Source: Onthophagus taurus
Taxonomy: Eukaryota > Arthropoda > Insecta > Coleoptera > Scarabaeidae
NCBI RefSeq assembly: GCF_036711975.1
Contig: NC_091968.1
Location: forward strand, 15,996,001 to 16,060,000
Direction: 5' to 3'
DNA: 64,000 bases
Shown here: positions 15,867 through 55,166 of the stretch, piece after piece
Numbering within the stretch: position 1 is the stretch's first letter
Layout of the letters: the number at the start of each line of letters is the position of its first letter
The notes under the pieces: generated by a model
What the model was told of the DNA's origin: nothing
Seen by the model: the letters and a program-made list of their open reading frames with translations, nothing else
Databases searched by the model: none
Program-made: the position numbers and the translations under genes

Positions 15867-16019
15867 CGACAAGTTATGTGGCTGAAGTTAGATTCATATT
15901 CGAATCTGTACCAGATTCAGATTCATAAAATTACAGTTGACCAGACAAGTATTGAACATATCAATTGAAAAATCGTTTTCTGAAACTACAGAAGTTGTAG
16001 CAATCTGCGACTACCCTGG

Positions 16020-17030: not shown

Positions 17031-17119
17031 ATCCAAATAATCCCTATTTTTGAATTAATCTCTTCCATGCACGATGCTGTAACAATCTCTTCCTTTTTGT
17101 CATTTTAAAAAATTTGTCA

Positions 17120-19310
17120 TTGCAAGGTGTTAAAAATGGCCTATAATTTCTGAAATTGTGACGGATTGGAGCTTTGCTTTAATCACAGGTGTTTGTCTCG
17201 CTCTCAATAATATGCCGTTATATGCGTATTTAAAGGTATGTTATAAATATGTGTGCGATCAAGACCAGAGCATACGCGACATCATTATTTTAAGAACATG
17301 TGTCACTTATTTCATGAAGACGATGTCAAATTACCTACATAAAGCAAAAATTAATAAAAACTGCTTAGGTATAATATTGGACATGGTCGGTGTATTAATA
17401 CAAAGTCGAAATCTTCAAGAACTATCTGCCCATTTTAGAAGCTTTTTAATTGTAGTAATTAGTCCTGTAATTAACAGTGAAACAATTCAACATTTGAAAT
17501 TGCTTCCTAATTTAACTGAATATTTACTGAAATTATGTTACAATATCAAGTTGACATAATTAATTACAAGGATGAAGAAGACGTCGATGCTATCACAGCT
17601 TCTTATGCAGATACACCATTTTATAAACATTTTCATCAAATTTATACTGAAGTTGAGAACACATTAGCAAAATGGAATAAAGATAGTGATGAGAAAAATA
17701 GTCTGCAAGGTATTTGCACAATTTTTGCTAAAGAATTATATGCCATTTGTACCTCTTTGGACGTCTGTGATAGACAATATATCGGCAGAAGAAGTTATTA
17801 CATCAAATTCAAATGTTGAATGCTGGTTCAAAATTGTAAAAAAAATATCTTGGTGAATGACACATACTTGAAAGTTGGACGATTCGTAAAAATTTTAAAA
17901 AGAATTATACAAACTAATGTAAAAGAACTTACATTAGATATCAAAAAAATAAAGCAAAAAAGACAAACACAGGACGTTGATAACATTAATAGTCTAACAT
18001 GTAAGGAACAGTGGCGGCAAAAGGTAAACAAACAGCGGACTCATTTCGATAAAAAGAAACTTGCAGCTTTTTTGAATAAACATATCCACCTATTAAATGA
18101 TTACAACAACGATACAATTTATTTTGAAGATCAAGACGATATTGACGATCCACCCAGTTGTCATGATACAGAACATAAACATATCAACCTACAAAACAAT
18201 TCGAACACCAAAATAGCTTGTTATGAAGATGATGTTGATGATCCATCTAGTTTTCATGATATAGAATATAACTCATCATCCTCATTATTTTACAAATCAA
18301 GCACAGTGCCATGTTATATGAACGGACTGATATCTAATAATGAATATTACTTGAAAGCAATATCAAAATTTACAAAACACCCAAAATTTTTTGATTGGAA
18401 TATACAAGCATCGTAACACCAGTATTAAATTAATGAGCGACGATTTTTTACGCCTACATTCAACTAAAAATTCTACAATAGTTAATTCAAAAACATTAAC
18501 AGATAAGTGGTTGTCAGACTACTGCATCGATGCATTTGCGTTTTCATATTTAAAAAACATGACTAACTGTATTTATTACATAGATTCTGTTCCAGTACAA
18601 TTTATGTTTTCCGGAAACGATTGCTTAAATTTAAAAGTATTTGTTGAAAATTTAAATAATTATAAGTACGTATTTGTTCCATATAACTTAAACTCTAGTC
18701 ACTGGATATTAATAGTTTTAAGTATGTCAGAAAAATTAATTTATTTACTCGATCCCGGTCAAACAAATACGGACAATAATATACTTAACAAAATTAAGAA
18801 GTTTTTAAACAGGTGTAATAAAACAAAGAATCGTAATGAACAAACAAATATTAAAGGTTGGAAAATGGCTAAAGACCACAAATATCCTAAACAAACGCAT
18901 AGCACAAATTGTGGAATATTTGTTATATATTTTATGAGCGTTATAGGAGAACGTAATATTAATGATCTTTTTTATATAGATAACAATTGGATACAGAGGA
19001 ATACTGGTTTAGGCTACAATCGTACTTGTTGGCAAATTCTGAAAATATTAAAAAGTACTGCCCTAGGTGTGGTCTCTATAACGAATCGCAATACATTTGT
19101 TGCAATCAGTGTCAACGGTGATATCATTTTAAAAATTGTACCAATATTCCACCAAACATGTCTTTTGAACAAGCGTCCCACGTTACCTTCATATTTACCT
19201 GCAATCTTTGTTCAATTTAAATGCTTTAATGTGTCTCAAAATTTAGAAAAGTGTCGTTCAAGTTTCATTAATAAAGAAGTAAAAGCCATTTGAAAATTAT
19301 ACTTTCAAAT
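17120..19310 (+). pseudogene. FB1 transposase / Ulp1-like protease remnant
   Basis: This is a 5'-deleted, frameshifted relative of the FB3 protein. It begins at the second catalytic Asp: WPIISEIVTDWSF (about 17130-17170) parallels FB3 WPIFNVVVTDWSF. SNSNVECWFKIVK (about 17800-17850) carries the putative catalytic Glu. The acidic linker follows. DYCIDAFAF then opens a C48/Ulp1-type protease with SSHW (His, about 18697), LLDPG (Asp, about 18745) and TNCG (Cys, about 18907). Another frame past 19050 holds a PHD-like finger (CPRCG, CCNQCQR, TCNLC) with a Trp-to-stop change. The first catalytic Asp and N-terminus are gone, so FB1 cannot be autonomous. Confidence 0.8.
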
Positions 19311-19339
19311 CAAACTAAATATTGAATAAATTTTGAATA

Positions 19340-20130
19340 TAATAATCTAGACCAGTCCCAGGGCGCTGTAGTCTTTAGTTCTTCAGAAAATAATTTTTAA
19401 TTTTGCTATTGAACACGAGGAATTTTAAAAAATTCACCCTTCGGCTCCTACGGCAAATCTGGGGATGCGAGTGGACTAGAAGGATACCAGAGGACATAAT
19501 GCAATAATCTAGACTAGTCCCAAGGTGCTGCTGTCTTTAGTTATTGAGAAAATAATGTTTAAATTTGTTATTGAAAACGACGAATATTAAAAAATTCATC
19601 CTTCGGTCCCTACTGCAATTCTGGGGGTGCTGGTGGTCTAGAAGGATACTAGAGGACCTAATGCAATAATCTACACTAGTCCCAGAGTGCTGCAGTCTTT
19701 AGTTATTGAGAAAATAATGTTTAAATTTGATATTGAAAACGAGTAATATTAAAAAATTCACCCTTCGGCCCCTACGGCAAATCTGGGTGTGTTGATGGGC
19801 TACAAGGATACCAGAGGACCTAATGTAATAATCTAGACTAGTCCCAGGGTGCTGCAGTCTTTAGTTATTGAGAAAATAATGTTTAAATATGCTATTGAAA
19901 ACAAGGAATATTAAAAAATTCTAAAAAAATCTGGGGGTGCTGGTGTGCTAGAAGAATACCAGAGGACCTAATGCAATAATCTAGACTAGTCCCAGGGTGC
20001 TGCAGTCTCTAGTTATTAAGAAAATAATTTTTAACTTTGCTATTGAATACGAGGAACCCCTGGGCCCCTACGGCAAATCTGAGGGTGAGGGTAGACAAGG
20101 AACATACTAGAGGGTCTATTCGAATTATCC
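19340..20130 (-). repeat. FB1 right arm array, inverted ~162-bp units
   Basis: About five units of the same 162-bp repeat as the left arm, in reverse complement (CTAGACTAGTCCCA, AAAAAATTCACCCTTCGG, CTACGGCAAATCTGGGG). One unit near 19920 has lost the middle of this sequence. Confidence 0.9.
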
Positions 20131-20583
20131 AGGGTAGTCGCAGATTGCTACAACTTCTGTAGTTTCAGAAAACGATTTTTCAATTGATATGTTCAATACT
20201 TGTCTGGTCAACTGTAAATTTATGAATCTGAATCTGGTACAGATTCGAATATGAATCTAACTGCATCCACATCGACAAGTTACAATTATTTTGCGTTATG
20301 GATTGCAAAATCCTTTCCTTTAAAAATAAAAACTTAAACGTCTCAAATCATCAACATGTGTATATGTCGTGGTCACACGGCGAAATCCGTCAGTTCCCGA
20401 AAATCCTAGGCAGTTCATGAAGCGTCGGCATTTTGTGTAAATGTTAAGGATTTCGTTTTCTGGCGAGGCTGTTCATGAAACGCCCGATCATATTCGGCAA
20501 ATCGCGTACTCCATCTCGGTACACAATCTGCCGCAATAAAGGTATCGAAGGTTCACGAAACGACCGGCACAAAATAGTAGATA

Positions 20584-29985: not shown

Positions 29986-30399
29986 CCTTCCATTTCTTCT
30001 CAAATTCCTCTCCAACCAAGACCAATAAGAACCCAACAGCCGCAAAACCGAACTAATTTTGACATACTACTAACAACAATGAATGATTTGAACTGGTGTG
30101 AAGTTATCCATAAATCCCAGCAATAAACTTAAAACATTAATAATTCCGTAACCATTACGATTTGGGTAACCAAATTTCACACACAGGTCACTCTTACCCT
30201 CAAGAACAGCTAACCACCCCCATTTGGTAAAAAAAAAATTTTTCAACCCTCACCCCCGAAAAAGGGATGTTTTCGCCCTGATGGGCACCTTCGAATTAAA
30301 CGAAATTCTACCACATAATAGAACACACTTCTAAGTATTTTTATCAATTTTCAAAACACCGTAAGCCCTAACGGTTTTCGAGAAAAAAAATCAGTATTA

Positions 30400-33300
30400 T
30401 AAACCGCGGATGGGACTTTAGGGGTGAATTTGACCCCGTTGGGCACCTCCAAAATTGACGAAATTTTAGGATGATTTAGAGGATGCCTTTAGCGATTGAA
30501 ATCAACCATCCAAACACCGTAATGTATTACGGTTTCGGAGAAAAAAAATGTGTTATTAGACACTATAGGTATACAGCGCGGCGCGGACTTTGGGGGTGAA
30601 TTTGACCCCGTTGGGCACCTCCAAAATTGACGAAATTTTAGGATGATTTAGAGGATGCCTTTAGCGATTGAAATCAACCATCCAAACACCGTAATGTATT
30701 ACGGTTTCGGAGAAAAAAAATGTGTCATTAGACACTATAGGTATACAGCGCGGCGCGGACTTTGGGGGTGAATTTGACCCAGTTGGGCACCTCCAAAATT
30801 GACGAAATTTTAGGATGATTTAGAGGATGCCTTTAGCGATTGAAATCAACCATCCAAACACCGTAATGTATTACGGTTTCCGAGAAAAAAAATCTGTTAT
30901 TAGACACTATCGGTATACAGCGCGGCGCGGACTTTGGGGGTGAATTTGACCCCGTTGGGCACCTCCAAAATTGACGAAATTTTAGGATGATTTAGAGGAT
31001 GCCTTTAGCGATTGAAATCAACCATCCAAACACCGTAATGTATTACGGTTTCGGAGAAAAAAAATGTGTTATTAGACACTATAGGTATACAGCGCGGCGC
31101 GGACTTTGGGGGTGAATTTGACCCCGTTGGGCACCTCCAAAATTGACGAAATTTTAGGATGATTTAGAGGATGCCTTTAGCGATTGAAATCAACCATCCA
31201 AACACCGTAATGTATTACTGTTTCCGAGAAAAAAAATGTGTTATTAGACACAATAGGTATACAGCGGGGCGCGGACTTTGGGGGTGAATTTGACCCCGTT
31301 GGGCACCTCCAAAATTGACGAAATTTTAGGATGATTTAGAGGATGCCTTTAGCGATTGAAATCAACCATCCAAACACCGTAATGTATTACGGTTTCGGAG
31401 AAAAAAAATGTGTTATTAGACACTATAGGTATACAGCGCGGCGCGGACTTTGGGGGTGAATTTGACCCCGTTGGGCACCTCCAAAATTGACGAAATTTTA
31501 GGATGATTTAGAGGATGCCTTTAGCGATTGAAATCAACCATCCAAACACCGTAATGTATTACGGTTTCGGAGAAAAAAAATGTGTTATTAGACACAATAG
31601 GTATACAGCGGGGCGCGGACTTTGGGGGTGAATTTGACCCCGTTGGGCACCTCCAAAATTGACGAAATTTTAGGATGATTTAGAGGATGCCTTTAGCGAT
31701 TGAAATCAACCATCCAAACACCGTAATGTATTACGGTTTCGGAGAAAAAAAATGTGTTATTAGACACTATAGGTATACAGCGCGGCGCGGACTTTGGGGG
31801 TGAATTTGACCCCGTTGGGCACCTCCAAAATTGATGAAATTTTAGGATGATTTAGAGGATGCCTTTAGCGATTGAAATCAACCATCCAAACACCGTAATG
31901 TATTACGGTTTCGGAGAAAAAAAATGTGTTATTAGACACTATAGGTATACAGCGCGGCGCGGACTTTGGGGGTGAATTTGACCCCGTTGGGCACCCCCAA
32001 AATTGACGAAATTTTAGGATGATTTAGAGGATGCCTTTAGCGATTGAAATCAACCATCCAAACACCGTAATGTATTACGGTTTCCGAGAAAAAAAATCTG
32101 TTATTAGACACTATCGGTATACAGCGCGGCGCGGACTTTGGGGGTGAATTTGACCCCGTTGGGCACCTCCAAAATTGACGAAATTTTAGGATGATTTAGA
32201 GGATGCCTTTAGCGATTGAAATCAACCATCCAAACACCGTAATGTATTACGGTTTCGGAGAAAAAAAATGTGTTATTAGACACTATAGGTATACAGCGCG
32301 GCGCGGACTTTGGGGGTGAATTTGACCCCGTTGGGCACCTCCAAAATTGACGAAATTTTAGGATGATTTAGAGGATGCCTTTAGCGATTGAAATCAACCA
32401 TCCAAACACCGTAATGTATTACGGTTTCGGAGAAAAAAAATGTGTTATTAGACACAATAGGTATACAGCGGGGCGCGGACTTTGGGGGTGAATTTGACCC
32501 CGTTGGGCACCTCCAAAATTGACGAAATTTTAGGATGATTTAGAGGATGCCTTTAGCGATTGAAATCAACCATCCAAACACCGTAATGTATTACGGTTTC
32601 GGAGAAAAAAAATGTGTTATTAGACACTATAGGTATACAGCGCGGCGCGGACTTTGGGGGTGAATTTGACCCCGTTGGGCACCTCCAAAATTGATGAAAT
32701 TTTAGGATGATTTAGAGGATGCCTTTAGCGATTGAAATCAACCATCCAAACACCGTAATGTATTACGGTTTCGGAGAAAAAAAATGTGTTATTAGACACT
32801 ATAGGTATACAGCGCGGCGCGGACTTTGGGGGTGAATTTGACCCCGTTGGGCACCCCCAAAATTGACGAAATTTTAGGATGATTTAGAGGATGCCTTTAG
32901 CGATTGAAATCAACCATCCAAACACCGTAATGTATTACGGTTTCCAAGAAAAAAAATCTGTTATTAGACACTATCGGTATACAGCGCGGCGCGGACTTTG
33001 GGGGTGAATTTGACCCCGTTGGGCACCTCCAAAATTGACGAAATTTTAGGATGATTTAGAGGATGCCTTTAGCGATTGAAATCAACCATCCAAACACCGT
33101 AATGTATTACGGTTTCGGAGAAAAAAAATGTGTCATTAGCACTATAGGTATACAGCGCGGCGCGGTCTTTGGGGGTGAATTTGACCCCGTTGGGCACCTC
33201 CAAAATTGACGAAATTTTAGGATGATTTAGAGGATGCCTTTAGCGATTGAAATCAACCATCCAAACACCGTAATGTATTACGGTTTCCGAGATTGTCTGA
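30400..33300 (+). repeat. FB2 left arm array, 172-bp units (~17)
   Basis: GGGGTGAATTTGACCCC starts at 30421, 30593, 30765, 30937, 31109 and onward to 33172, nearly always 172 bp apart. Each unit also has GGATGATTTAGAGGATGCC, CACCGTAATGTATTACGG and GTATACAGCGCGGCGCGGAC. Marked variants recur together at multiples of 172 bp (for example the CTATCGGT variant near 30911, 32113 and 32973), which indicates higher-order blocks. Confidence 0.95.
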
Positions 33301-33364
33301 AATTTTAGGATGATTTGGAGAGTGGATTTTTGATAGAAAAAAAAACTTTTGATAAAGAATGAAA

Positions 33365-33370
33365 TTTATT
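33365..33370 (-). terminator. Polyadenylation signal of the FB2 hydrolase gene
   Basis: AATAAA on the minus strand lies three bases after the TAA stop and before the tandem array begins, so the transcript can end inside the element interior. Confidence 0.6.
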
Positions 33371-33373
33371 ATA

Positions 33374-34125
33374 TTAATGGTCTGTTTTACTTATAATTAA
33401 ATTGTGTAATGGATTGAGAATATTATTATAATTAGTTGCTACCGCGTTCCAAACCGCTTCCAATCCTTGTTCATTTAAGTGAATGCCATCCCTGTGTAGA
33501 AATTTGTATTAAACACATAAGAAAAGAAAAATTTTCACGTTGTGTTACCCTTCCATCATGTTTCTGTTAACAATTGCTTCAATGTCGGTACAATTGATTT
33601 GCTTTTCAGCACAAAACCGTCGAATGTAATGATTGATTTCCTATAAAGGCATAGAGAGTATTTATTTATAGCATGACATAGAAATTATAATATCTTACGT
33701 TCACAGACTCGAAGTTTTTGCAGGGAGGAATTGTGCAAATTTGTATTCCTTTAGGATTTAAGGAAAGAAGGAAGCGGAAGAGGTGAGAATATTGGGACTT
33801 TAGTTGGGATGGTGATGTTTTGTGGAGTATATCGTTAGTTCCTATCATTATAACGATATGTCGTTCAACAATATCTCCACAAAACCAAGGGGAACATGTT
33901 TTTGGAATACACTTTGCGCGCCGCAAAAGTTTTAGTATTGTTTGACCGCCTACTGCTAAGTCGAGGAAATATTTTCCGTTGCTTGTCCGTTTTGATTGTC
34001 GTCCTAAAAATATATACCATTAGTAGGAATTAACTTCATATCTGTTAAAACAAATACTTACTTTGTATAGTACGTAGCATTCGGCAAAAATTACTATCGC
34101 CCAAAAACAGTAATTTCGTCGGCAT
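33374..34125 (-). CDS. SGNH/GDSL-type hydrolase, four exons, carried inside FB2
   Basis: Exons (minus): 34125-34062, 34003-33699, 33640-33549 and 33491-33374, 579 nt in total, 192 residues and TAA. All three introns have GT...AG borders and the phases fit without any stop. SGNH signatures are present in order: LFLGDSN with nucleophile Ser11 (block I), AVGG with Gly41 (block II), MIGTND with Asn78 (block III), and DGIH with Asp155 and His158 (block V). The family hydrolyses esters or related bonds; the substrate here is unknown. There is no signal peptide or membrane segment, so it is probably intracellular. Start chosen: first ATG downstream of a TATA/initiator pair. AATAAA lies just after the stop. 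It is the only intact gene in FB2 and looks like cargo. Some retroelements carry esterase domains of this class, but I know of no foldback example. Confidence 0.82.
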
Positions 34126-34164
34126 CTTCGCTGGTCACTGGTTTTAACAAGAGATAAGCAGAAC

Positions 34165-34200
34165 AACTGATCTCTGCAATAGCTGAGGAACCTTTATATA
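34165..34200 (-). promoter_or_regulatory. TATA box and initiator of the FB2 hydrolase gene
   Basis: On the minus strand TATATAAAGG (34200-34191) is followed by TCAGTT (34170-34165). The initiator A is 32 bases from the first T of the TATA box, the canonical arthropod spacing. The ATG is about 43 bases further on. Confidence 0.7.
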
Positions 34201-34204
34201 TTAT

Positions 34205-34965
34205 TAAGTTCTTACCTGTGTTACAGTAATATCGATGGCTATGATTGGTCAAAGCCGGTGTAAGTGTACTTACAATGCACTAACTCGTAAGCCACGTACC
34301 TGCTTAAGTGACCTTTTTACTGAAAAGAAGTTAAAAAGGAATTCCCTGTACATTTATTAACATCAAAAATAAGTTTCTGAATATCACTATTTCTTTATTA
34401 ACTTCGCGCTTCTAAATGAAGACGTCGTTACCTCGCCAAATATTAATATATATATATATTATATATTTAATTAAATATAACTATATTTGTAATTTATAAT
34501 TTATATTATATATAAATATAATAACTTATTTATACACAATATATTATATACACAAAAATATTAACGAAAATATCGAAGCAGATTGATTCTAAAAAGAACC
34601 GATAAAATATCCATAAAGCGCGAACTACAGCAAAATATATCAACTAGTGATCTCCGTCCCCAATAGAATAGTTTAAGCACATTTATAAGTTTACTCCTCA
34701 CCCTTCTGGCAAAATCTAAAAAAAAACAAAGGCGCTCTAAAACAACGCCGAATAAGTCGGCAACTATTTTCCCGGAATGCACTTATAATGCAAAAAATAT
34801 GGACATATTTTTTCCTTAATACCTGCGCCTTTTGTAACTGCACGTGGCGGAGTTCTTACCCTTTGTCAGTAACGACTAAAAGCACATAAAACTACAAAAT
34901 GCCTTTCTTAACAAAATTTATTTTTTCCATGAAATATTAAGAGTTTCGCAGTTTTCATAATCTAT
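34205..34965. other. FB2 interior upstream of the hydrolase, AT-rich, no recognised gene
   Basis: Contains a TA-rich tract at 34440-34560 and a 73-codon minus-strand frame (34561-34782) without recognisable family, promoter or splice context. It probably acts as upstream spacer. Confidence 0.4.
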
Positions 34966-34969
34966 TAAA

Positions 34970-36200
34970 ATCGCTAAAGGCACCTGCTATCTGGTCTACA
35001 TACGTGTACAATTTAATAACAAATTTTTTTCTCTGAAGCCGTTAAGGGTTACGGTGTCTTGACGGTCGATTTAAATCGCTAAAGGCATCCTCTAAATCAT
35101 CCTAAAATTTCATCAATTTTGGAGGTGCCCAACGGGGTCAAATTCACCCCCAAAGTCCGCGCCGCGCTGTATACCTATAGTGTCTAATAACACATTTTTT
35201 TTCTCGGAAACCGTAATACATTACGGTGTTTGGATGGTTGATTTCAATCGCTAAAGGCATCCTCTAAATCATCCTAAAATTTCGTCAATTTTGGAGGTGC
35301 CCAACGGGGTCAAATTCACCCCCAAAGTCCGCGCCGCGCTGTATACCTATAGTGTCTAATAACAGATTTTTTTTCTCGGAAACCGTAATACATTACGGTG
35401 TTTGGATGGTTGATTTCAATCGCTAAAGGCATCCTCTAAATCATCTTAAAATTTCGTCAATTTTGGAGGTGCCCAACGGGGTCAAATTCACCCCCAAAGT
35501 CCGCGCCGCGCTGTATACCTATAGTGTCTAATAACAGATTTTTTTTCTCGGAAACCGTAATACATTACGGTGTTTGGATGGTTGATTTCAATCGCTAAAG
35601 GCATCCTCTAAATCATCCTAAAATTTCGTCAATTTTGGAGGTGCCCAACGGGGTCAAATTCACCCCCAAAGTCCGCGCCGCGCTGTATACCTATAGTGTC
35701 TAATAACAATTTTTTTTTCTCGGAAACCGTTATACCTTACGGTGTTTGGATGGTCGATTTAAATCGCTAAAGGCATCCTTTAAATCATCCTAAAATTTCA
35801 TCAATTTTGGAGGTGCCCAACGGGGTCAAATTCACCCCCAAAGTCCGCGCCGCGCTGTATACCTATAGTGTCTAATAACAATTTTTTTTTCTCGGAAACC
35901 GTTATACCTTACGGTGTTTGGATGGTCGATTTAAATCGCTAAAGGCATCCTCTAAATCATCCTAAAATTTCATCAATTTTGGAGGTGCCCAACGGGGTCA
36001 AATTCACCCCCAAAGTCCGCGCCGCGCTGTATACCTATAGTGTCTAATAACAATTTTTTTTTCTCGGAAACCGTTATACCTTACGGTGTTTGGATGGTCG
36101 ATTTAAATCGCTAAAGGCATCCTCTAAATCATCCTAAAATTTCATCAATTTTGGAGGTGCCCAACGGGGTCAAATTCACCCCTAAAGTCCCATCCGCGGT
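34970..36200 (-). repeat. FB2 right arm array, inverted 172-bp units (~7)
   Basis: AACGGGGTCAAATTCACCCC begins at 35131, 35303, 35475, 35647, 35819, 35991 and 36163, each 172 bp apart, in reverse orientation to the left arm. The innermost unit (about 34970-35100) is more diverged. Confidence 0.95.
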
Positions 36201-36639
36201 TTATAAGAATGATTTTTTTTCTCGAAAACCGTTAGGGCTTACGGTGTTTTGAAAATTGATAAAAATACTTAGAACTGTGTTCTATTATGTGGTAGAATTT
36301 GGTTTAATTCGAAGGTGCCCATCAGGGCGAAAACATCCCTTTTTCGGGGGTGGGGGTTGAAACAAATTTTTTTTACCAAATGGGGGTGGTAAGCTGTTCT
36401 TGAGGGTAAGAGTGACCTCTGTGTGAAATTTGGTTACCCAAATCGTATTAGTTACGGAATTATTAATGTTTTAAGTTTATTGCTGGGATTTATGGATAAC
36501 TTCACACCAGTATGATTTGACACTAAAATGTCAAACATTGCTAAAAACCATAGAAAACCAACAACAAACAAGAGTCGATAAATATAAACCATATTGATGT
36601 TTAATTAAGTAAAACTCAAGTAAAACTGAGAAAACATTT

Positions 36640-39110
36640 TCATGTAACAATTTTATTTTCGGTTAACATATCTGCTAGTTGATTTTTGCTATTTATATGT
36701 TCTATATTAATTAATCCCTCATTTAGATAATTTAATATAAAATTATATTTTAAATCAATGTGTTTGACTCTTCTATTATTTTCTGGATTTTTATTAAATG
36801 TATACAACCCTGATTATCTTCGAACAGTTTAATATATTTAATATTTGACGTTTAGGTCTATTAAAATTTTTTTATACCATAAACATTCCTGTACTGCCGA
36901 ACATAATGCAACTAATTCCGCTTCGGTGCTAGATAAAGCTACACAATTTTGTTTTTTAGTAACCCACGGCACTGTATTCCCATAAATTTTAATTAAATAA
37001 CCACTAATTGATTTTCTGTCATGATAATTTCTACCCCAGTCCGAATGAATATAGCAAACAAATGGTAAAGCATTATTATCTCTTTTATAAACCAATTCTA
37101 AATCTATTGTACACTTCAAATATCTCATCAATTTTTTTAAATGTTTCCACACTTCCTCGTAATTTCTATCTTGAAACCTGCTGAAATAATTTATTGGAAA
37201 ACTTATATCTGGTCTTGTTCCAAGCATTAGGTACATTAAATAGCCTATAAATTCTTTTATTGGTTTTTTATTATCTTCATCTTTCATTATTTCTAATTTT
37301 AATTTTGGATCGATAGGTATTGATGAAGAATTACAATTTTCCATATTAAAACGTTTTCATATTTTTGTTAAATATGATTTCTGATTAATTTTCAAGGTTC
37401 CTATTTCTCTGTTATAATTTATTTCTAGTACTAAAAAATTCTTCAAATCACCCTTGTCTTTTAAAGCAAATTTATTCATTAAGTCCTTCTTGCATTTATC
37501 AATGTTATTCGCATTAGAGCCTGCCAATATTATATCGTCAACATATATAATACAGTAAACTATATTATCATAAAATTTTTTATAGTACAAACAATAATCA
37601 TTCTCAGACCTTCTATATCCTGTTTTCACTAAAAAATTATTAATTCCTGCATTCCAACATTTAGCCGCTTGTTTAAGTCCGTAAAGATATATCTACGCAA
37701 TTTTAAAATATTTCCATCTTTGCATTTTAACCCCGCTGGAGGATATATATACACATCTACTTTCAGGTATCCATTTAAAAAAGTTGTTTTGATATCCAGT
37801 TGTTTAAATACAAATTTGTGTTGATTTCCTATTGATAATAGAGTTCGAATTGTTGTCATTTTCGCAACTGGTGAGTAAATTTCGTCATAATCAAAAGAAC
37901 TTTGTTGACAACATCCTCGTACCACTAATCTAGCTTTATGTTTTCCTCTATCTTTTCTTCTAAAGGTTTTCTAGCAAATACCCATTTTGTATTTAAAATT
38001 TCTCCATTTTTTGGCATTGGAACTTCATTCCATGTATTATTTTTATTAATTGCATCTAATTCTCTCTGCATTGCTTTTCCCAAAAAGACTCCATAATCTA
38101 TATCCAGTAGTTGTGTATCCTATCATTATACATTTTTCAGATGTTGGATCAAATTTCTGTCTCAGTTTCTTAGGAATATGTAGTTACTCCAAAAATTCTT
38201 AAATTTTCAACATATCGTTTTCTTTCCTACCATAATTCTGCTGCTGTCACATTATTTATATTTGATGCTGTAGGACTCCTGTTATATAAGTATGCAGCAA
38301 CTCGTATAGCTTCATTTCAAAAACTTCTTGGCATTTTTGCATCTTCAACCGTTACTCTTGCCTTTTCGATTAATGTTCTATTGAATCGTTCCGATTTTCC
38401 ATTTTGTTCGGGTGTATATCCTACAGTACAGTATAATCGATTAAAGTTCCATTATTTCTACAAAAAGATCTAATTTCCTTTGAAATATATTCTCTGCCAT
38501 TATCACATCTTATAGTTGCTTGCTATTTTGAGATTAAATTTTGACTGATTGTGAGCCATATTTACATATTCTTTAAAACATTCGAATACTTCACTTTTAC
38601 TTTTCATTATATAAACATAAACAAAATTTGAATAATCATTAATAAATGTAATAAAGTATTTTCCATCATCATGTGATAAAGGAGTTATTGGTCCTGTAAT
38701 ATATGTATGTACGATTTCTAATAACCGTTTGTTTTTGTTCTTGTTCCAACTTCATTCTATTTAATTTACTTCTAAGACAAGACTCGTTTAATCGTTTTTA
38801 AATTTTTAATTCCATTTACTAAATTATTTTTGATTATTTTTTCTAAATTTGCTTGACATAAATGACCGTATCTTTTGCCATAATTTTGATTGTGTGGTTT
38901 CTTTTTCAACATTAATGCATTCCTTGTTTTTAATTTGAAATGAAATGTTATATACATTATTTAAATGCCCTATACCTACTAAGTCTTCTCTGCTATATAG
39001 TTTAACCATACTATTACTAAAAACAATTTTTATATTTGCAGCATCTAATCTCTTAACTGATAAAAGGTTTCTTCGAGCCATTGAAACATAAAATACATTC
39101 TTAATTGTAC
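36640..39110 (-). pseudogene. Ty1/copia retrotransposon pol remnant
   Basis: Minus-strand order: a pre-integrase domain (MARRNLLSVKRL, about 39080), a zinc-binding segment (KRYGHLCQANLEKII, about 38870), an integrase core (FINDYSNFVYVYIM, about 38640, and AAYLYNRSP, about 38290), reverse transcriptase (FKQLDIKTTFLNGYL, about 37800, and YVDDIILAG, about 37540), then RNase H (VALSSTEAELVALCSA, about 36950, and KLFEDNQGCIHLI, HIDLKYNFI to about 36650). The order IN-RT-RH is diagnostic of copia. Many frameshifts and stops separate the pieces, so it is dead. No flanking LTR pair was identified. Confidence 0.85.
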
Positions 39111-39204
39111 GACCAATGTTTTTACCTTTGATTTTAGTAAATACCTTAATTTTAATCTTATATTAAATTTATATCTTATAATTTTAATCGTCTAATCTTC
39201 GTTT

Positions 39205-40671: not shown

Positions 40672-42418
40672 ATGGATGTTGATACAGACCTGCTGATTAC
40701 CCTTATAGAAGCCAGACCCGTATTGTGGGACAAGAGTGAAGAAAATTATAAAAATAAAAATGGAACAGCGAATGCTTGGGAGGAAGTATTTAATGCGTTA
40801 AATGCAGATTACCAAAAGATGCAGGAAAAAGAAAAAAAATATTCTGTGAGTATTTATTGTTAATGTTTTTCACTCATTATATAGAATTTTGAGTGTTAAT
40901 TAAAAAAAGGTGGGAATGCAATTATTCACAGACACCTGTTTTATACTTTGTTTATTAACCATGGAACTGATCCAATTCCTACAAAATAGTTACATAAGTG
41001 TTGCCTTATATTGTTAGCTAATAAACCTCCGCGTGATGTTTGCTCTTTTAATACGTCTTCCAAGCCAGTAATTGTTATAGTATCTTCAAAATTTATTCCA
41101 TCCCTTTCTCGCACAAAATTATGTAGTACAATGCTTGCCTTTGTAATATCCACAGCAAAATCTGGCTCTATATTAATCGGTCGGTAGAAGATTCTCCATT
41201 TATTGCTTAGAATTCCAAATGCGCATTCGACGTATCTACGAGCTCTAGTGAGACGGTAGTTAAAAATTCTTTTCTCAAGAGATAGGTTTGATCCGCCAAA
41301 AGGACGTAAAAGGTGCCTGTGAAGTGCAAAGGCTTCATCACCAACGAAAAAATAAGGAACTTTGGTGTTCTCTGTTCCTGGCAAATATTTGTCCTCTGGT
41401 AGCTGGTGCGTTCCTCCTACAATTGATTCCCACAACCGACTTCTTTTAAAAATTGCAGAATCACAATCCTTTCCATAACTTCCTATGTTAACATAAATGA
41501 ATCGATAATTTGAATCAGCAATTGCCATTAAAACGATTGAATGGTAATGTTTATAATTAAAATACATCGAGCCACCCCCACGTGGACAAATTAACTGAAT
41601 GTGTTTCCCGTCGACGGCTCCTATGCAATGGGGAAAATTTGCGTTTTTTTCAAAATCCATTGCAATTTTTTCCCATTGGTCTTTTGAAGGCATTGGAAGA
41701 GTTTCAGCTTACAGTACCACCCAAATCGCTTTACATACTTCTTTTACTATTAAGCTAGCTGTGGAAATTCCAATTCTGAAGGTGTAATGAAGATCAGTGA
41801 AGGTGCACCCACTGCCAAGATACCTGAAAAAGAAACAAAACCGTTATGTTTTATTTTGTTAATTCTTATAAAAAATCATATTTTGTTTCGGTTAAGAGTT
41901 AACATACGTATACTTATTCATTGTTACAGCAAGAGAAGTCACGAAACGATGGACAAACGTACGGGATTCATTTGCAAAGAGTTGTAAAAAAGAAAAAACA
42001 AAAAAGAAAAGTGGTGCAGGGATATCAACAAGCAAGCAATATATGTATATATAGCAAACAATTAGAGTTTTTAAAAAAATTGTATGTTAGTAGAGAAGTT
42101 GATGATAATTTCGAACCAACAAGGGACGATTCTTTGCAAGATGATGCAATTATGCATTTTGATGTTGAAACATCTATTGAACCGAGTCCATCAACCTCAT
42201 CAACAGCCACTACATCTACGCGGCATAGTAAACGGCGCGGGCGTAAAATGGATGAGTTTGATGAAAGAATTTTGAAAGTCATAGAAGCTGAAAGCCCAAA
42301 TCACCATATTTCTTTCTTTAACGGTATTGTACCTGCGTTAGAAGAATTTAATGAGGGTGAAATTTTACAATTTCAAATGGGGGTGTTGCAACTGATTGCA
42401 AATATCAATCAGCAGTGA
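40672..42418 (+). pseudogene. H1 MADF-type DNA-binding protein, two exons, frameshifted
   Basis: Exon 1 (40672-40845) encodes a MADF start: LITLIEARPVLWDKSEENYK, with donor GTGAGT. Exon 2 (about 41930-42418) continues EVTKRWTNVRDSFAKSCKK, then switches frame in a TA repeat near 42045-42055, and then reads YSKQLEFLKKLYV through a BESS-like tail (HHISFFNGIVPALEEF and LQFQMGVLQLI). A base also seems missing at the exon 1 donor, judged by comparison with H2. Such MADF/Myb-like proteins act with the Harbinger transposase, bringing it to the nucleus and to the element ends (family knowledge). The gene is interleaved with the antisense transposase. Confidence 0.75.
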
Positions 42419-43037: not shown

Positions 43038-43439
43038 ATTAAATTGCAAAGGTAGAACACGTATGAAAGGTCGCACAAAACTACTCAACTTACGAAGACG
43101 GTATGGTGAGATACCGTCGCATGTGAAAGCAAACCGTTCACGGAAAAAACCGTATGGTTATTTATGTCGTTGAAGTTAGCAACGGATTCAGAAACGAAAT
43201 TCACATTTTTACAGCGGACCAAACAAATTCTGTACTCTATCTATAATTTCGTATTTATTAGTGATAACAACCAAAAAAACATCAAAATTAGCATTAAAGA
43301 GAGTAAAATAGATAACCCCTCTAAAACTTTCAAGTAAAATTCATTATTATTAAATAAAAATCACCCTTTCATTATGTGAAAAACTCCAATTTGCATTGAA
43401 AAAGCTTGATGATCCATTAAGTCAACCCCAAATATCAAA

Positions 43440-46425
43440 ATCACTATTTCGAATAACATATCTAGGCACCACCCGGAAATTCAGGGGATAAAGGGTCGAA
43501 ATCACCCCCGAAATACGTAAAAAATTCATAACTTTCTTGAAAAATTTTGTGACACCACCAAACTCAGTCCAAAGATCGAAAATAAGGTTTCGAATAACAT
43601 ATCCCCGAGATTCGCGGAAATTCAGGGGATAAGGGATCGAAATCACCCCCGAAATACGTAAAAAATTCATAACTTTCTTGAAAAATTTTGTGACACCACC
43701 AAACTCAGTCCAAAGATCGAAAATAAGGTTTCGAATAACATATCCGCGAGAATCGCGGAAATTCAGGGGATAAGGGGTCGAAATCACCCCCGAAATACGT
43801 AAAAAATTCATAACTTTCTTGACAAATTTTGTGACACCACCAAACTCAGTCCAAAGATCGAAAATAAGGTTTCGAATAACATATCCGCGAGATTCGCGGA
43901 AATTCAGGGGATAAGGGGTCGAAATCACCCCCGAAATACGTAAAAAATTCATAACTTTCTTGAAAAATTTTGTGACACCACCAAACTCAGTCCAAAGATC
44001 GAAAATAAGGTTTCGAATAACATATCCGCGAGATTCGCCGAAATTCAGGGGATAAGGGGTCGAAATCACCCCCGAAATACGTAAAAAATTCATAACTTTC
44101 TTGACAAATTTTGTGACACCACCAAACTCAGTCCAAAGATCGAAAATAAGGTTTCGAATAACATATCCGCGAGATTCGCGGAAATTCAGGGGATAAGGGG
44201 TCGAAATCACCCCCGAAATACGTAAAAAATTCATAACTTTCTTGACAAATTTTGTGACACCACCAAACTCAGTCCAAAGATCGAAAATAAGGTTTCGAAT
44301 AACATATCCGCGAGATTCGCGGAAATTCAGGGGATAAGGGGTCGAAATCACCCCCGAAATACGTAAAAAATTCATAACTTTCTTGAAAAATTTTGTGACA
44401 CCACCAAACTCAGTCCAAAGATCGAAAATAAGGTTTCGAATAACATATCCGCGAGATTCGCCGAAATTCAGGGGATAAGGGGTCGAAATCACCCCCGAAA
44501 TACGTAAAAAATTCATAACTTTCTTGACAAATTTTGTGACACCACCAAACTCAGTCCAAAGATCGAAAATAAGGTTTCGAATAACATATCCGCGAGATTC
44601 GCGGAAATTCAGGGGATAAGGGGTCGAAATCACCCCCGAAATACGTAAAAAATTCATAACTTTCTTGAAAAATTTTGTGACACCACCAAACTCAGTCCAA
44701 AGATCGAAAATAAGGTTTCGAATAACATATCCGCGAGATTCGCGGAAATTCAGGGGATAAGGGGTCGAAATCACCCCCGAAATACGTAAAAAATTCATAA
44801 CTTTCTTGAAAAATTTTGTGACACCACCAAACTCAGTCCAAAGATCGAAAATAAGGTTTCGAATAACATATCCGCGAGATTCGCCGAAATTCAGGGGATA
44901 AGGGGTCGAAATCACCCCCGAAATACGTAAAAAATTCATAACTTTCTTGACAAATTTTGTGACACCACCAAACTCAGTCCAAAGATCGAAAATAAGGTTT
45001 CGAATAACATATCCGCGAGATTCGCGGAAATTCAGGGGATAAGGGGTCGAAATCACCCCCGAAATACGTAAAAAATTCATAACTTTCTTGAAAAATTTTG
45101 TGACACCACCAAACTCAGTCCAAAGATCGAAAATAAGGTTTCGAATAACATATCCGCGAGATTCGCCGAAATTCAGGGGATAAGGGGTCGAAATCACCCC
45201 CGAAATACGTAAAAAATTCATAACTTTCTTGAAAAATTTTGTGACACCACCAAACTCAGTCCAAAGATCGAAAATAAGGTTTCGAATAACATATCCGCGA
45301 GATTCGCGGAAATTCAGGGGATAAGGGGTCGAAATCACCCCCGAAATACGTAAAAAATTCATAACTTTCCTTAAAAATTTTGTGACACCACCAAACTCAG
45401 TCCAAAGATCGAAAATAAGGTTTCGAATAACATATCCGCGAGATTCGCCGAAATTCAGGGGATAAGGGGTCGAAATCACCCCCGAAATACGTAAAAAATT
45501 CATAACTTTCTTGAAAAATTTTGTGACACCACCAAACTCAGTCCAAAGATCGAAAATAAGGTTTCGAATAACATATCCGCGAGATTCGCCGAAATTCAGG
45601 GGATAAGGGGTCGAAATCACCCCCGAAATACGTAAAAAATTCATAACTTTCTTGAAAAATTTTGTGACACCACCAAACTCAGTCCAAAGATCGAAAATAA
45701 GGTTTCGAATAACATATCCGCGAGATTCGCCGAAATTCAGGGGATAAGGGGTCGAAATCACCCCCGAAATACGTAAAAAATTCATAACTTTCTTGAAAAA
45801 TTTTGTGACACCACCAAACTCAGTCCAAAGATCGAAAATAAGGTTTCGAATAACATATCCGCGAGATTCGCCGAAATTCAGGGGATAAGGGGTCGAAATC
45901 ACCCCCGAAATACGTAAAAAATTCATAACTTTCTTGAAAAATTTTGTGACACCACCAAACTCAGTCCAAAGATCGAAAATAAGGTTTCGAATAACATATC
46001 CGCGAGATTCGCCGAAATTCAGGGGATAAGGGGTCGAAATCACCCCCGAAATACGTAAAAAATTCATAACTTTCTTGACAAATTTTGTGACACCACCAAA
46101 CTCAGTCCAAAGATCGAAAATAAGGTTTCGAATAACATATCCGCGAGATTCGCGGAAATTCAGGGGATAAGGGGTCGAAATCACCCCCGAAATACGTAAA
46201 AAATTCATAACTTTCTTGAAAAATTTTGTGACACCACCAAACTCAGTCCAAAGATCGAAAATAAGGTTTCGAATAACATATCCGCGAGATTCGCCGAAAT
46301 TCAGGGGATAAGGGGTCGAAATCACCCCCGAAATACGTAAAAAATTCATAACTTTCTTGACAAATTTTGTGACACCACCAAACTCAGCCCAGAGATCGAA
46401 TTCCAATAACATATATTATCTATGA
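43440..46425 (-). repeat. FB3 left arm array, 141-bp units (~21)
   Basis: CGAATAACAT recurs at 43591, 43732 and onward at 141-bp steps. Each unit has TCGAAATCACCCCCGAAATA, CATAACTTTCTTGA and CAAACTCAGTCCAAAGATCG. Variation is confined mostly to GAAA/GACA before AATTTTGTGACACC and CGCGG/CGCCG before AAATTC. The variants alternate in blocks, indicating recent homogenisation by unequal exchange. Confidence 0.95.
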
Positions 46426-46491
46426 GACGCGCGGAAATTATGTTGATAAAGGGTGTATAATAATAATTGTATATATAAATAATTATTGTAC

Positions 46492-49400
46492 TTAAAACTG
46501 AATTTGGTCTAATGTGTAGTGATCTGGATAAACATGATCCCTATCCGTAATATCATAAAGCGTTTTATATTGCTCAAAGAAGCTTGCTTCATCGTTCATT
46601 CCGTAATATTTACGTATAATTTTTAAATTCAGAAATCCCAGAAGAACATATTTTACAAATGTCTTGTCTGGTATATTGGTTGTTGACATTATCTTTCTAC
46701 ATATATAGACTGCCGCACTAAATGATATAAACGGAGTTGACATATCCCATTTCAAATGGTACTCTGGTTTATTAACAGAGCGGTACCGCTCACAAAAATC
46801 GTTTGTGTCCCTCGTATTGTATATTTCTTGTAATTCGTTTTTGTAATGAATCACAAAATATTTTAGAGACATATTATCCAACGGAACATTTTTAATTGTA
46901 CTTGATGTGTTGAATAAACCTGGTTTATAGTGTTGACATAATGGGCAACTATAAACAAAGTTGCGAAGTTTAATGGTATCTATAGAAATTAGATTAGATA
47001 TGTTCGAGCAACGATCTATATGTAACCATCTGTTACATAAGTTGCAGCCTACATAGTTTTCCTGTGATCCTATACCACATTTAAAACATTTATCATACAT
47101 AACGTCAGATGACAGTAATAAAACATTTTGTAAAGAAATTCTGAAAAGGTCAGGATTAAAATTACTTTGTAATAATGATGTTGACAAATATTGCAGTGTT
47201 TCATTTTTTTGCAAAACCATCATATACCATATAACATAGACTCCACAATTGATTGAATCTTCAGTCTCTTGGGTAGGATATGCTATTGTTGTTAGTTTCC
47301 ACTTCCTAGCATTTAGTTTGTCTTCGTGTAGGTATAGACGGTCTCTAGTGGAAAATAGTCTTTTAACCTTTTTTACAATTTCCTCGTGTGATATACGATA
47401 ATATTTACCAGGATTCAAAATACAAATAGAGTTAGTAGTCAAATCTAATATAATTAATATCCAGTGATTGTTGTTACAATTGTGGGGCAACAGAATAAAA
47501 CGGACTCCTTTAAGTGATTTTGTAAAAGGTAAAAATTTAGACAGATTCTTTATCTGATCTGAAAGCAAAATTTGGACGGATATTGTGTCGATGTAATAAA
47601 TGTCTTCGCGGTCTTTAAAAAAAGTAAATGCCAGAGAATCTATGCAATAATCTGCAACCCATGAACCCATGGGTTGCAGATTATTGCAACCCCCGTTTTC
47701 GGTTGATATTAACGTTCTAAAGTCAGAGCTACTTAATGAAATCGTTTGTCGTTTGAAATTATATGAATATTGTCCCAAGATAAAATCAGTTTGGAAAGCT
47801 GCGGACATATAAAAATCATGATCAAAGAACAGACCATTTGAAAGGGCTCGTTGATCTGGCTGATCAAGGATACCGTTCAAAGAACAATACTGTATATCTC
47901 CCTCATCAACTTGTTCTGGTTGTGGTTGGTTTGACTTTAACCCCCTCTCATAACATTTTTCTGGTTGGGTTGGCTGGGTCCCCCTTATGATCTCCTCTTC
48001 AACCTTTTCTGGTTGGACGACTAAATTCATTTCCACTTCATCATCTATTTTGTTATTTTCATCATTTACATTAATTTTGTCCGTTAAGTAAACATTATGA
48101 AAATACCGTTTTCGTTTTTTTGATTTTGTCCACGTTTCTTGAGCATCCGGGTTATCAATTTCATGTCGTGCATCTGATTTTGTTGAGGTTATTTTTTTCC
48201 TCTTCGGCTTTTTACCAATTTCTAAATCTATAGCTTTTATGTTACTTATAATTCGTGAATTAAGCAGGTTTACAAATCGCCCTACTTTCAAATTGGTTTT
48301 GTTTTCTAGTATTTCTTGCTTGACAATTTTAAACCATGTTTCCACAAGTGAATTACTGTAACGATCACTTTCAGGTATGTTGGACCACATTGGAGCGAAA
48401 GGCATTACATAATTCAATAAATACGTAAAAAATTCCTCGTGTTTGTAAGGGTTGCGTTCCGTTGCTGAGCTTACACTTTCATCTAACTCTTTTAAAACCT
48501 TGTCATAAACTCTAAAAAAACAAATAAAAAAAGGAGAGCTAGTATATTCTCCTCTCACAACTTCTTCATCTATGTCGACGTCCAATTCACATGAAATATC
48601 TTGCCTTGTAGATAACAAATGATTGTAGGTTTCATAGTCACTAGACGATAGGTGTGCTATTGCATTTTTGACGTTGTTATTATATGACGATGTTAATAAG
48701 AGAAAAGCGACATTTTCAAATCGAATAATTAACTCTTCCAAGGATCTACATTGAACTAATACTGCTATTGCATTAACAATTCCATCCCTTATATTCGGTT
48801 TTTTCTTAGTACGAGAAAGTCTGTTGCAAATCATTTTAACGAAATGTCCACAACATAGTTTTAATTTTATTAAACTAAAAAATCGATGGTCGTCCTTATT
48901 TGTAACATATTTATAACAAATTTGGAGGTAAGTATATAAAGTGACATCGTTTAACCCTTGACAAATAGCCATCATAAGCGAAAAACTCCAATCTGTTACA
49001 ACAACGTTAAAGATCGGCCATGTTTTCTTGCATTTCGTACGTATAAAATGTTTAAAATGCAAAATAAAAGCCATTATTGTTGCCGAATCATGATGTGAAG
49101 ATATTAATTTAGCGATAGGTACCACAATGTCGTTTACTTTCACAACCAACGCATAGTATAGAACCCTGCGACCCCTATCATACACAGTCGGTCTAACGAC
49201 GGAGCCTGTCGCATCAAAGTACCCTATCATTTTTTTACCTTTCTTAATTAAGGTTTTAATGTTCTCTTTGGAATATAAATACACCAACGTTTTTCCGCTA
49301 GGAAATTGAACGTATGTACTGTCATCATCCTGAGTTAGTGACATTAGTAGTATATCTAGTAAAGGATCCGAATGAAAGTCCTGTTCGCCCATTGCCTCCG

Positions 49401-50634
49401 ACCTAGCTTTTTGGTAAACGGAAAGCGAGCGCAAGCCTTGCCAATTACCTTCATAAATTAAATCTCTATCAACCTTTTTTATTTCTTCGCTGCGATAGGT
49501 GTTGGGCAAACTAAAAAGCAGTTCTTTCTTTACCTCCGCCCTTTCTCTACCTTTCAGTTGATAAGCATGCTCTTCGTGGTGATTTTCCACGTGAGGACCT
49601 TTGTAGCATATTCTTACATCTATCAAATCCTCTAAAATATTGTATATAAATTTAAATTCTCTACAAGATGTATGTTTACAAATTGCATACTCGACTATCT
49701 GACAAGCCGTTTGCTGCTTTTTTTTGTTTATACGACTTCCTTTGAAAATTAGAAGACAAGAAATGCCATATAGACTTATTTGCTGTCGCCAATACTGATG
49801 TCTAACTTCGGACTTATAGGATATGTCGTGGTTATCTACATAGCGGTTAATTTTAAATGTTTTAAAAAAGTTAAATTTTAACTTATTGATTGGACTCGAT
49901 ATAGTCTGGGGCATTTCTATCTTTTCTTGTGCATGTTGCAATGCTTCATGTACTACTGTGTTTGCATTATCTACCAAGTGGTCATCAACAGCATCAACCT
50001 CAAGGGAATCATCGACGTAAGTAGAGGAATTGATGTATTTTTCAATTTCATCAGTATCTCTTTTGGATATACTCTGGGATATTTCTATTTTTTCTCGTGC
50101 ATGTTGCATTGCTTCATGTACTGCTGTGTTTGCATTATCTATCAAGTGGCCATCAACAGCATCAACCTCAAGGGAATTATCGACGTCAGTAGAGGAATTG
50201 ATGTATTTTTCAATTTCATCAGTATCTCTTTTGGATATACTCTGGGATATTTCTATTTTTTCTCGTGCATGTTGCATTGCTTCATGTACTGCTGTGTTTG
50301 CATTATCTATCAAGTGGCCATCAACAGCATCAACCTCAAGGGAATTATCGACGTCAGTAGAGGAATTGATGTACTTTTCAATTTCATCAGCATCTCTTTT
50401 GATGTTCATTAGCAACATCTTTCTATTTTTTAAATTATCTTTAATATCAACATATACACAGAGATCTGATAGATGTGATATTTCTGATCGAACAGAGCAT
50501 TCTCTTAAAACAGTCGTATCAATATTATATTTACTAAGAAAATTTGCAATCTTCTGTAACCTTAACTGCTTACTTTGTTTAACTGGCCTTCCTGGACCGT
50601 CCATATTAATATTATAAAGGTAACGAATTGTCAA
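46492..50634 (-). CDS. FB3 transposase: MULE-like DDE core fused to Ulp1/C48-type protease and PHD-like finger
   Basis: Intronless, 1380 residues counted from the ATG at 50634; MDGPGRPVKQ eleven codons later (50604) is an equally good start. Residues about 80-245: three 56-residue acidic repeats (DEIEKYINSSTDVD...). A Cys/His-containing region follows to about 370. The transposase core has Asp474 (GYFDATG), Asp548 (VVVTDWSF) and Glu765 (SLVETWFKIVK), a MULE-like DDE reading supported by FB1 keeping the last two. After an acidic, Glu-rich linker, a C48-type protease has His1057 (NNHW), Asn1074 where FB1 has Asp (LNPG), and Cys1130 (INCGVYV). A PHD-like finger lies at about 1180-1225 (CFKCG, GCNLCNRWLH, CPLC). 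Likely role: binds FB ends and excises or inserts the element. The protease role is unknown; SUMO or ubiquitin-like processing is a guess. Confidence 0.85.
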   Translation of the reverse strand: MTIRYLYNINMDGPGRPVKQSKQLRLQKIANFLSKYNIDTTVLRECSVRSEISHLSDLCVYVDIKDNLKNRKMLLMNIKRDADEIEKYINSSTDVDNSLEVDAVDGHLIDNANTAVHEAMQHAREKIEISQSISKRDTDEIEKYINSSTDVDNSLEVDAVDGHLIDNANTAVHEAMQHAREKIEISQSISKRDTDEIEKYINSSTYVDDSLEVDAVDDHLVDNANTVVHEALQHAQEKIEMPQTISSPINKLKFNFFKTFKINRYVDNHDISYKSEVRHQYWRQQISLYGISCLLIFKGSRINKKKQQTACQIVEYAICKHTSCREFKFIYNILEDLIDVRICYKGPHVENHHEEHAYQLKGRERAEVKKELLFSLPNTYRSEEIKKVDRDLIYEGNWQGLRSLSVYQKARSEAMGEQDFHSDPLLDILLMSLTQDDDSTYVQFPSGKTLVYLYSKENIKTLIKKGKKMIGYFDATGSVVRPTVYDRGRRVLYYALVVKVNDIVVPIAKLISSHHDSATIMAFILHFKHFIRTKCKKTWPIFNVVVTDWSFSLMMAICQGLNDVTLYTYLQICYKYVTNKDDHRFFSLIKLKLCCGHFVKMICNRLSRTKKKPNIRDGIVNAIAVLVQCRSLEELIIRFENVAFLLLTSSYNNNVKNAIAHLSSSDYETYNHLLSTRQDISCELDVDIDEEVVRGEYTSSPFFICFFRVYDKVLKELDESVSSATERNPYKHEEFFTYLLNYVMPFAPMWSNIPESDRYSNSLVETWFKIVKQEILENKTNLKVGRFVNLLNSRIISNIKAIDLEIGKKPKRKKITSTKSDARHEIDNPDAQETWTKSKKRKRYFHNVYLTDKINVNDENNKIDDEVEMNLVVQPEKVEEEIIRGTQPTQPEKCYERGLKSNQPQPEQVDEGDIQYCSLNGILDQPDQRALSNGLFFDHDFYMSAAFQTDFILGQYSYNFKRQTISLSSSDFRTLISTENGGCNNLQPMGSWVADYCIDSLAFTFFKDREDIYYIDTISVQILLSDQIKNLSKFLPFTKSLKGVRFILLPHNCNNNHWILIILDLTTNSICILNPGKYYRISHEEIVKKVKRLFSTRDRLYLHEDKLNARKWKLTTIAYPTQETEDSINCGVYVIWYMMVLQKNETLQYLSTSLLQSNFNPDLFRISLQNVLLLSSDVMYDKCFKCGIGSQENYVGCNLCNRWLHIDRCSNISNLISIDTIKLRNFVYSCPLCQHYKPGLFNTSSTIKNVPLDNMSLKYFVIHYKNELQEIYNTRDTNDFCERYRSVNKPEYHLKWDMSTPFISFSAAVYICRKIMSTTNIPDKTFVKYVLLGFLNLKIIRKYYGMNDEASFFEQYKTLYDITDRDHVYPDHYTLDQIQF

Positions 50635-50639
50635 AGAAA

Positions 50640-51705: not shown

Positions 51706-51709
51706 GAAA

Positions 51710-55007: not shown

Positions 55008-55166
55008 ATTAAAATAAATAAATGAATAAACTTCTTAAATGTAGCTGTATGTGGTTACGGCGGAGAGGAGACTAGTTACTTTGTGCCTCTCTTTGTTCTT
55101 TATTTTGTTTTTTTTTCTTTTTGTTAATTTTGTCTGTATATAGAATAACTTTAGTTTATTATTTGT

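Follow-up and report, generated by a model that had tools for sequence, protein, structure and literature searches.

FB2 and its hydrolase gene

The window is the whole stretch of DNA that was analysed, 64,000 nucleotides of the Onthophagus taurus genome (C3:15996001–16060000 of a 290.8-Mb assembly with 33 contigs). It contains a foldback element, FB2, with a gene on the minus strand between its arms. The parts of the element were as follows (window positions).

30092–36511: FB2 as a whole (6420 bp), delimited by inverted-repeat comparison, a 9-bp target-site duplication and identical ends in other copies
30083–30091: left target-site duplication ATGATTTGA, 9 bp
36512–36520: right target-site duplication ATGATTTGA, 9 bp
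30092–30393, plus strand: left non-tandem terminal repeat, 96.7% identical to the right one
36206–36511, minus strand: right non-tandem terminal repeat (306 bp), from inverted-repeat comparison
30413–33292: left arm, a tandem array of ~16.8 copies of a 172-bp unit
35014–36190: right arm, a tandem array of ~6.8 inverted copies of the 172-bp unit

The non-tandem terminal repeats (~300 bp) start with ACTGGTGTGAAG at 30092 and at 36511. FB2 has the long inverted repeats of variable tandem-unit number that define a foldback, and the left and right counts vary between copies. Its target-site duplication falls in the 9–10 bp of Foldback/MULE elements, and, as in Pack-MULEs and Pack-TIRs, a non-transposon gene (the spliced SGNH gene) lies between the terminal inverted repeats. 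The sequence-only reading of this DNA had described inverted tandem-repeat arms without a transposase, and this was borne out: the arms consist of 172-bp units, and no transposase was seen among the FB2 ORFs of at least 100 aa. The sole stop-to-stop ORF of that size inside the element is exon 2 of the hydrolase. The features of the gene are listed below.

34191–34200, minus strand: TATA-box-like TATATAAAGG, from motif reading
34165–34170, minus strand: initiator-like TCAGTT, from motif reading
34062–34125, minus strand: exon 1 (64 bp), starting with MPTKLLFLGDSN, with the predicted catalytic Ser11
33699–34003, minus strand: exon 2 (305 bp), with AVGG and GTND (Asn78)
33549–33640, minus strand: exon 3 (92 bp)
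33374–33491, minus strand: exon 4 (118 bp including the stop codon), with DGIH (His158)
33365–33370, minus strand: polyadenylation-like AATAAA, from motif reading

Minus strand 34125–33374 is predicted to be a complete four-exon SGNH/GDSL hydrolase gene. Spliced at the proposed sites, it has introns of 58, 58 and 57 bp, all three with GT-AG, and the product of 192 aa is encoded in a frame unbroken over the four exons. The four SGNH blocks with their Ser, Gly, Asn and His were all found: GDSN (S11), AVGG (38–41), GTND (N78) and DGIH (H158). Pfam Lipase_GDSL_2 matched residues 21–163 (E 2.9e-12; 47.9 bits, cut-off 32.9), and Lipase_GDSL was also above its cut-off (E 1.6e-8). Block I (GDSN) lies in exon 1, beyond the Pfam alignment, and was recognised by eye. 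The OSK domain of Oskar scored 25.2 bits in the hydrolase, below the Pfam cut-off of 27.

A gene model in nr, P0001 (O. taurus LOC111429034), begins at exon 2. Its junctions between exons 2 and 3 and between exons 3 and 4 are identical to those proposed here, so two of the three introns are supported. The first 107 residues of P0001 are 100% identical to the genome copies L029 and L030. The gene is not a product of chance, because 17 of the 20 best-scoring other copies keep the frame, all 20 keep the GT-AG signals and the junctions of P0001 agree. Hence, the earlier description of a four-exon GT-AG gene in phase with all four SGNH blocks held, as did the view that an intron-containing gene of this kind is not a retrocopy. 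The TATA box, initiator and AATAAA of the same reading are present as well (at 34200, 34170 and 33370, respectively); with such promoter-like and polyadenylation-like signals, the gene may well be transcribed.

Copies in the genome

The search with exon 2 gave 122 candidates, all of which were scored. Of these, 112 had an E value up to 1e-3 and represented 101 loci (1.5-kb clustering), or 106 loci with the ten weaker ones. The loci grade from 100% identity down to short fragments near 58%. For comparison, L009–L028, the 20 other copies with the best scores, were fetched. In 16 of them, the interior was 99.5–99.9% identical to that of the window FB2 over essentially the whole length. The interior of L014 is in the same range apart from a nested insertion, and that of three older copies (L026–L028) is 98% identical. 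Arm lengths differ among the 20 copies. The sequence-only reading had suggested that the element is maintained or very recent; the second of these is supported.

Both ends were readable in 15 of 21 copies (the 20 and the window FB2), and 13 of these have perfect 9-bp duplications; in the other two, the duplication is 8 bp long. With a B element, an arms-only element (see the following subsection) and two deletion derivatives included, both ends were read in 19: 15 perfect 9-bp duplications (that of L016 sits in a TA repeat), 2 duplications of 8 bp and 2 with one mismatch. As 15 of these 19 copies and derivatives show perfect 9-bp duplications, the hydrolase gene moves with the element. The loci are found on nine numbered contigs, with differing flanks and duplications of their own. 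FB2 has spread by transposition and not by segmental duplication; the foldback is real and young, has been actively spread and carries the spliced hydrolase gene in intact form.

Broken, truncated and empty forms

We distinguished three subfamilies, the letters A, B and C being names coined in this analysis. The three frameshifted copies among the 20 best-scoring ones of subfamily A are L024, L025 and L027. Subfamily B has an 8-nt insertion in exon 1, GTND changed to RTKD and DGIH changed to DGIY; the main B type also has a 4-nt loss deleting the first donor. Exact patterns, which miss diverged copies, gave the exon-1 lesion at 42 loci, RTKD at 47 and DGIY at 40 over the genome, with at least one B mark at 52 loci and all three at 30. 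Exact GTND was found at 28 loci, some of them truncated or frameshifted, and one GTND locus adjoins a B mark. Reversed-pattern controls gave 0 matches genome-wide. The changes of Asn78 and His158 in B are derived, since L038 of subfamily C keeps both ancestral residues. Subfamily B is without ~470 bp upstream of the gene; its ends and arms are nonetheless the same, and its duplication is perfect (L039).

Subfamily C comprises L038, L048 and L040, with no exon-1 match in the fetched stretch. Exon 3 is absent too, in a gap that begins with intron 2 and ends within intron 3. L038 and L048 keep GTND and the block IV histidine. These two also belong to a series of four hydrolase remnants ~12–13 kb apart (C7:30796915, 30809444, 30821658 and 30835059), which is probably a local tandem duplication. 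Finally, L043 consists of arms only, with no interior and the perfect duplication TCTTTAATC on both sides.

Broken forms of the hydrolase gene are no less widespread than the intact one. Because dead-gene copies and the arms-only L043 also moved, movement does not require the hydrolase in cis. The sequence-only reading had held that broken copies elsewhere would tell against a working gene; this is the state of subfamilies B and C, and not of A.

What moves FB2

Two further foldbacks were found in the window.

15876–20272: FB1, with arms of a 162-bp unit and target-site duplication CGACAAGTT
17134–19293: decayed C48 ORF region of FB1
43164–53664: FB3, with arms of a 141-bp unit and target-site duplication TGGTTATTT; candidate helper family
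46495–50640, minus strand: intact FB3 ORF of 1382 aa with a C48 (Ulp1) domain

Each of the three foldbacks has a 9-bp duplication, and TGAAGTTA is found in register at positions 8–15 of all three left ends. At the right ends, the motif is in register in FB2 and FB3, and FB1 has TGCAGTTA. Past the 8-base motif, the ends of FB1 and FB3 are unlike those of FB2, and there was no BLAST similarity of FB1 or FB3 to parts of FB2 at E 0.01. In the FB3 ORF, C48 was found and the Pfam MULE domain was not; no MULE-type transposase was seen in FB2. MULE-NOF transposases carry C48 domains, and we take FB1 and FB3 to be MULE-NOF-like foldbacks. The 1382-aa protein of FB3 has 99% identical relatives in the same genome and a relative in the weevil Ceutorhynchus (49% over 58% of the length). 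An FB3-type C48 foldback is a plausible helper in trans for FB2.

The 141-bp unit of FB3 is a multiple of three, and one frame stays open through its arms at 43422–46415 (minus strand) and 51679–53406 (plus strand), with 997 aa and 575 aa from stop to stop. The C48 ORF itself contains, at 49898–50401, three copies of a 168-bp repeat that match at 96%. Elsewhere in the window, ORFs judged by eye as transposon-like were seen at 36838–39162, 54390–57914, 40941–41708, 58974–59906 and 61431–61826; they comprise copia-type polyprotein pieces, a LINE, two PIF/Harbinger-like nucleases and a piggyBac fragment. Outside the three foldbacks, a 173-bp unit is repeated five times in tandem at 12342–13216.

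The search for an autonomous FB2 covered 34 of 203 and 40 of 197 candidates for the transposase and 40 of 257 for the terminal repeat; at this coverage, such an element could exist. Among the matches listed, the two C48 proteins had no match inside a known FB2 (exon-2 loci at E up to 1e-3 and the 40 terminal-repeat places), and the only C48 matches within 20 kb of an FB2 were FB1 and FB3 of the window and one pair on C11. Three candidates were rejected. The C11 pair (C11:12.81–12.83 Mb) is two separate elements: a remnant of FB2, 1 kb long, and next to it a foldback that has 162-bp arms and contains an ORF of 1143 aa. This foldback (L041:1664–5092; C11:12822064–12825492) has an intact C48 ORF whose product is 34% identical to the FB3 protein. 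The FB2 at C8:17757279 is 15.2 kb long, and its size is explained by a nested insertion that is LTR-retrotransposon-like by eye. In L044, only one FB2 end was seen, and its ORFs are retroelement-like by eye.

We consider it likely that FB2 is a non-autonomous MULE/FB-type (Pack-MULE-like) foldback that is moved in trans and has the spliced SGNH gene as a passenger. A transposase supplied in trans would act on the terminal repeats, and its source would most likely be a MULE-NOF-like foldback such as FB3. The gene would ride along, dispensable in cis for movement. Its intactness in A, the youngest wave, would mainly reflect the youth of that wave, and in B and C it would have decayed.

Selection on the hydrolase

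Codons with gaps were removed before counting, and codons with stops were removed too in the subfamily C and exon-wise counts. The dN/dS ratio was 0.36–2.42 among three A copies (on 7–10 changes), 0.40–1.21 between A and B-type copies and 0.36–0.56 (pooled) against subfamily C copies. In the diverged intact A copies, replacements made up 7 of 9 changes (L026) and 4 of 7 changes (L028) with respect to the window. For exon 2 alone, constraint did not reach significance in a single one of the six old copies (p 0.15–1). For exon 4 against subfamily C, nonsynonymous change was 0.10–0.18 and synonymous change 0.38–0.46 per site (p 0.001–0.07). The ratio of ~0.24–0.44 was nominally significant in five of six comparisons, which are in effect several tests of one lineage. 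This deficit is weak evidence of past constraint on the gene and gives a hint that it may once have mattered.

Two apparent signals were discarded. Purifying selection from the pooled comparison with L038 (dN/dS 0.39, p 0.0035) was confined to exon 4 and to one truncated lineage. A noncoding comparison (p 1.9e-5) was dropped, as alignment of L038 across its deletion had given 15 of 50 intron differences; without this alignment, 5 of 50 noncoding positions differed. The earlier suggestion that the gene is maintained was not supported: lesions were found at 52 loci and GTND at 28, an arms-only element moved and the ratios in subfamily A scatter widely.

It is unlikely that the hydrolase is instead a genuine element gene, selected on a master lineage and acting in trans, with B, C and the arms-only elements living off A. 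Its action might then be on lipids or membranes, as proposed for LINE esterases. The constraint suggested by exon 4 would fit such a gene, as would the four catalytic blocks, intact in A though old degraded relatives show long residence, and the two catalytic residues kept in L038 and L048. SGNH esterases also recur in unrelated transposons (PMC3905857, PMC5408684, PMC4021074). However, exon 2 shows no significant constraint, the ratios between A and B-type copies reach 1.21 and the changes in L026 and L028 are mostly replacements. Moreover, we know of no role for a hydrolase in cut-and-paste transposition. That FB2 carries a long-resident, selected lipolytic accessory acting in trans, on which dead B, truncated C and empty derivatives live, is distinctly unlikely.

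Origin of the gene

Relatives of the hydrolase were looked for in this genome and, as to other insects, in protein-database entries. A single-sequence query of nr gave P0001 as the one match, and an alignment query (E up to 10) returned P0001 again together with the weak P0002 (E = 3), which is LINE-like by eye; when profiles were compared pairwise, it matched the hydrolase at 36% along 58 residues. There were no relatives among viral contigs and nothing convincing in NCBIfam. In PHROGs, phrog_14008 matched (E 4.3e-9). The PDB matches by sequence had E values of 0.4–0.6 at best, with a GDSL lipolytic protein at 0.4 and unrelated myosin chains at the same level. We read phrog_14008 and the weak wider matches as a probable sign of generic SGNH similarity.

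A recent capture of a host gene by an empty foldback, as for Ssk-FB4, with the parent still elsewhere in the genome, is very improbable. Introns and promoter-like sequence did come along, and there is a precedent for the capture of an almost entire gene by a foldback (PMC8277862). Yet no intact unlinked donor was found among the exon-2 matches, which pass gradually into fragments of this same family; the one match that looked unrelated had 25% at E 1.2, and the genome-wide Pfam search adds one weak match (C5:4047683, 25.8 bits). Degraded copies and dead subfamilies also show that capture was not recent. The genome searches, made exon by exon and blind to genes that are diverged or finely split, gave no host SGNH paralogue or donor. 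A donor may have been lost, may be absent from the assembly, or may have exons too short or a sequence too diverged for these searches. We therefore call the passenger-bearing FB2 Pack-MULE-like and not a proven Pack-MULE, since no parental gene was found outside the element.

That the copies arose by segmental duplication or assembly error, the gene itself not having transposed, has a negligible probability: foldback arms are hard to assemble and there is a four-copy local array at C7:30.80–30.84 Mb, but the spread over nine contigs, with different flanks and own duplications, largely refutes it.

Comparison with known systems

The sequence-only reading knew of no foldback or MULE-NOF element with such cargo. 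Ssk-FB4 of Drosophila melanogaster, as described in PMC8277862, is a direct precedent. It is a Pack-MULE-type foldback with a nearly complete intron-containing gene, for which transcripts, peptides and signs of positive selection are reported, and it is termed there the first potentially functional coding Pack-TIR. Like FB2, it has long repetitive TIRs, distinct 9–10-bp duplications, several transposed copies and a spliced protein gene, and it would depend on a transposase in trans. Ssk-FB4 has four copies, which are polymorphic, and a known donor, whereas FB2 has ~100 related loci and dead subfamilies, its cargo is different and its donor was not found. Full-length gene capture is described as exceptionally rare for Pack-MULEs and Helitrons (PMC6431247).

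Texim genes of fish are SGNH-hydrolase genes associated with Helitrons (PMC4021074). As in FB2, an exon-bearing SGNH gene is found with a DNA transposon, which mobilised it according to the authors. Unlike FB2, the element is a Helitron and not a foldback, the Helitron coding region lies beside the gene, and texim-like genes are found in other animals without Helitrons. SGNH/GDSL esterase domains were also described in LINE ORF1 (PMC3905857) and in bdelloid LTR ORF3 (PMC5408684), as an accessory function within transposons. These esterases differ from that of FB2 in being retroelement parts, with no demonstrable sequence relation to it. FB1 and FB3 resemble FB2 in their inverted tandem-repeat arms, 9-bp duplications and left-end TGAAGTTA, and differ in their C48-domain ORFs and arm units (162 and 141 bp).

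Among the open-licence PMC papers listed, none showed a foldback or MULE element with an SGNH gene, and whole spliced protein genes on animal cut-and-paste elements are rare there. What is new in FB2 is the pairing of foldback and SGNH gene, its scale, a donor that escaped detection and dead derivatives that have spread as well. FB2 is also another case of an SGNH hydrolase paired with a transposon. Its roughly one hundred loci in one assembly include intact, dead, truncated and empty classes, and it can therefore be measured whether such cargo is ever kept by selection.
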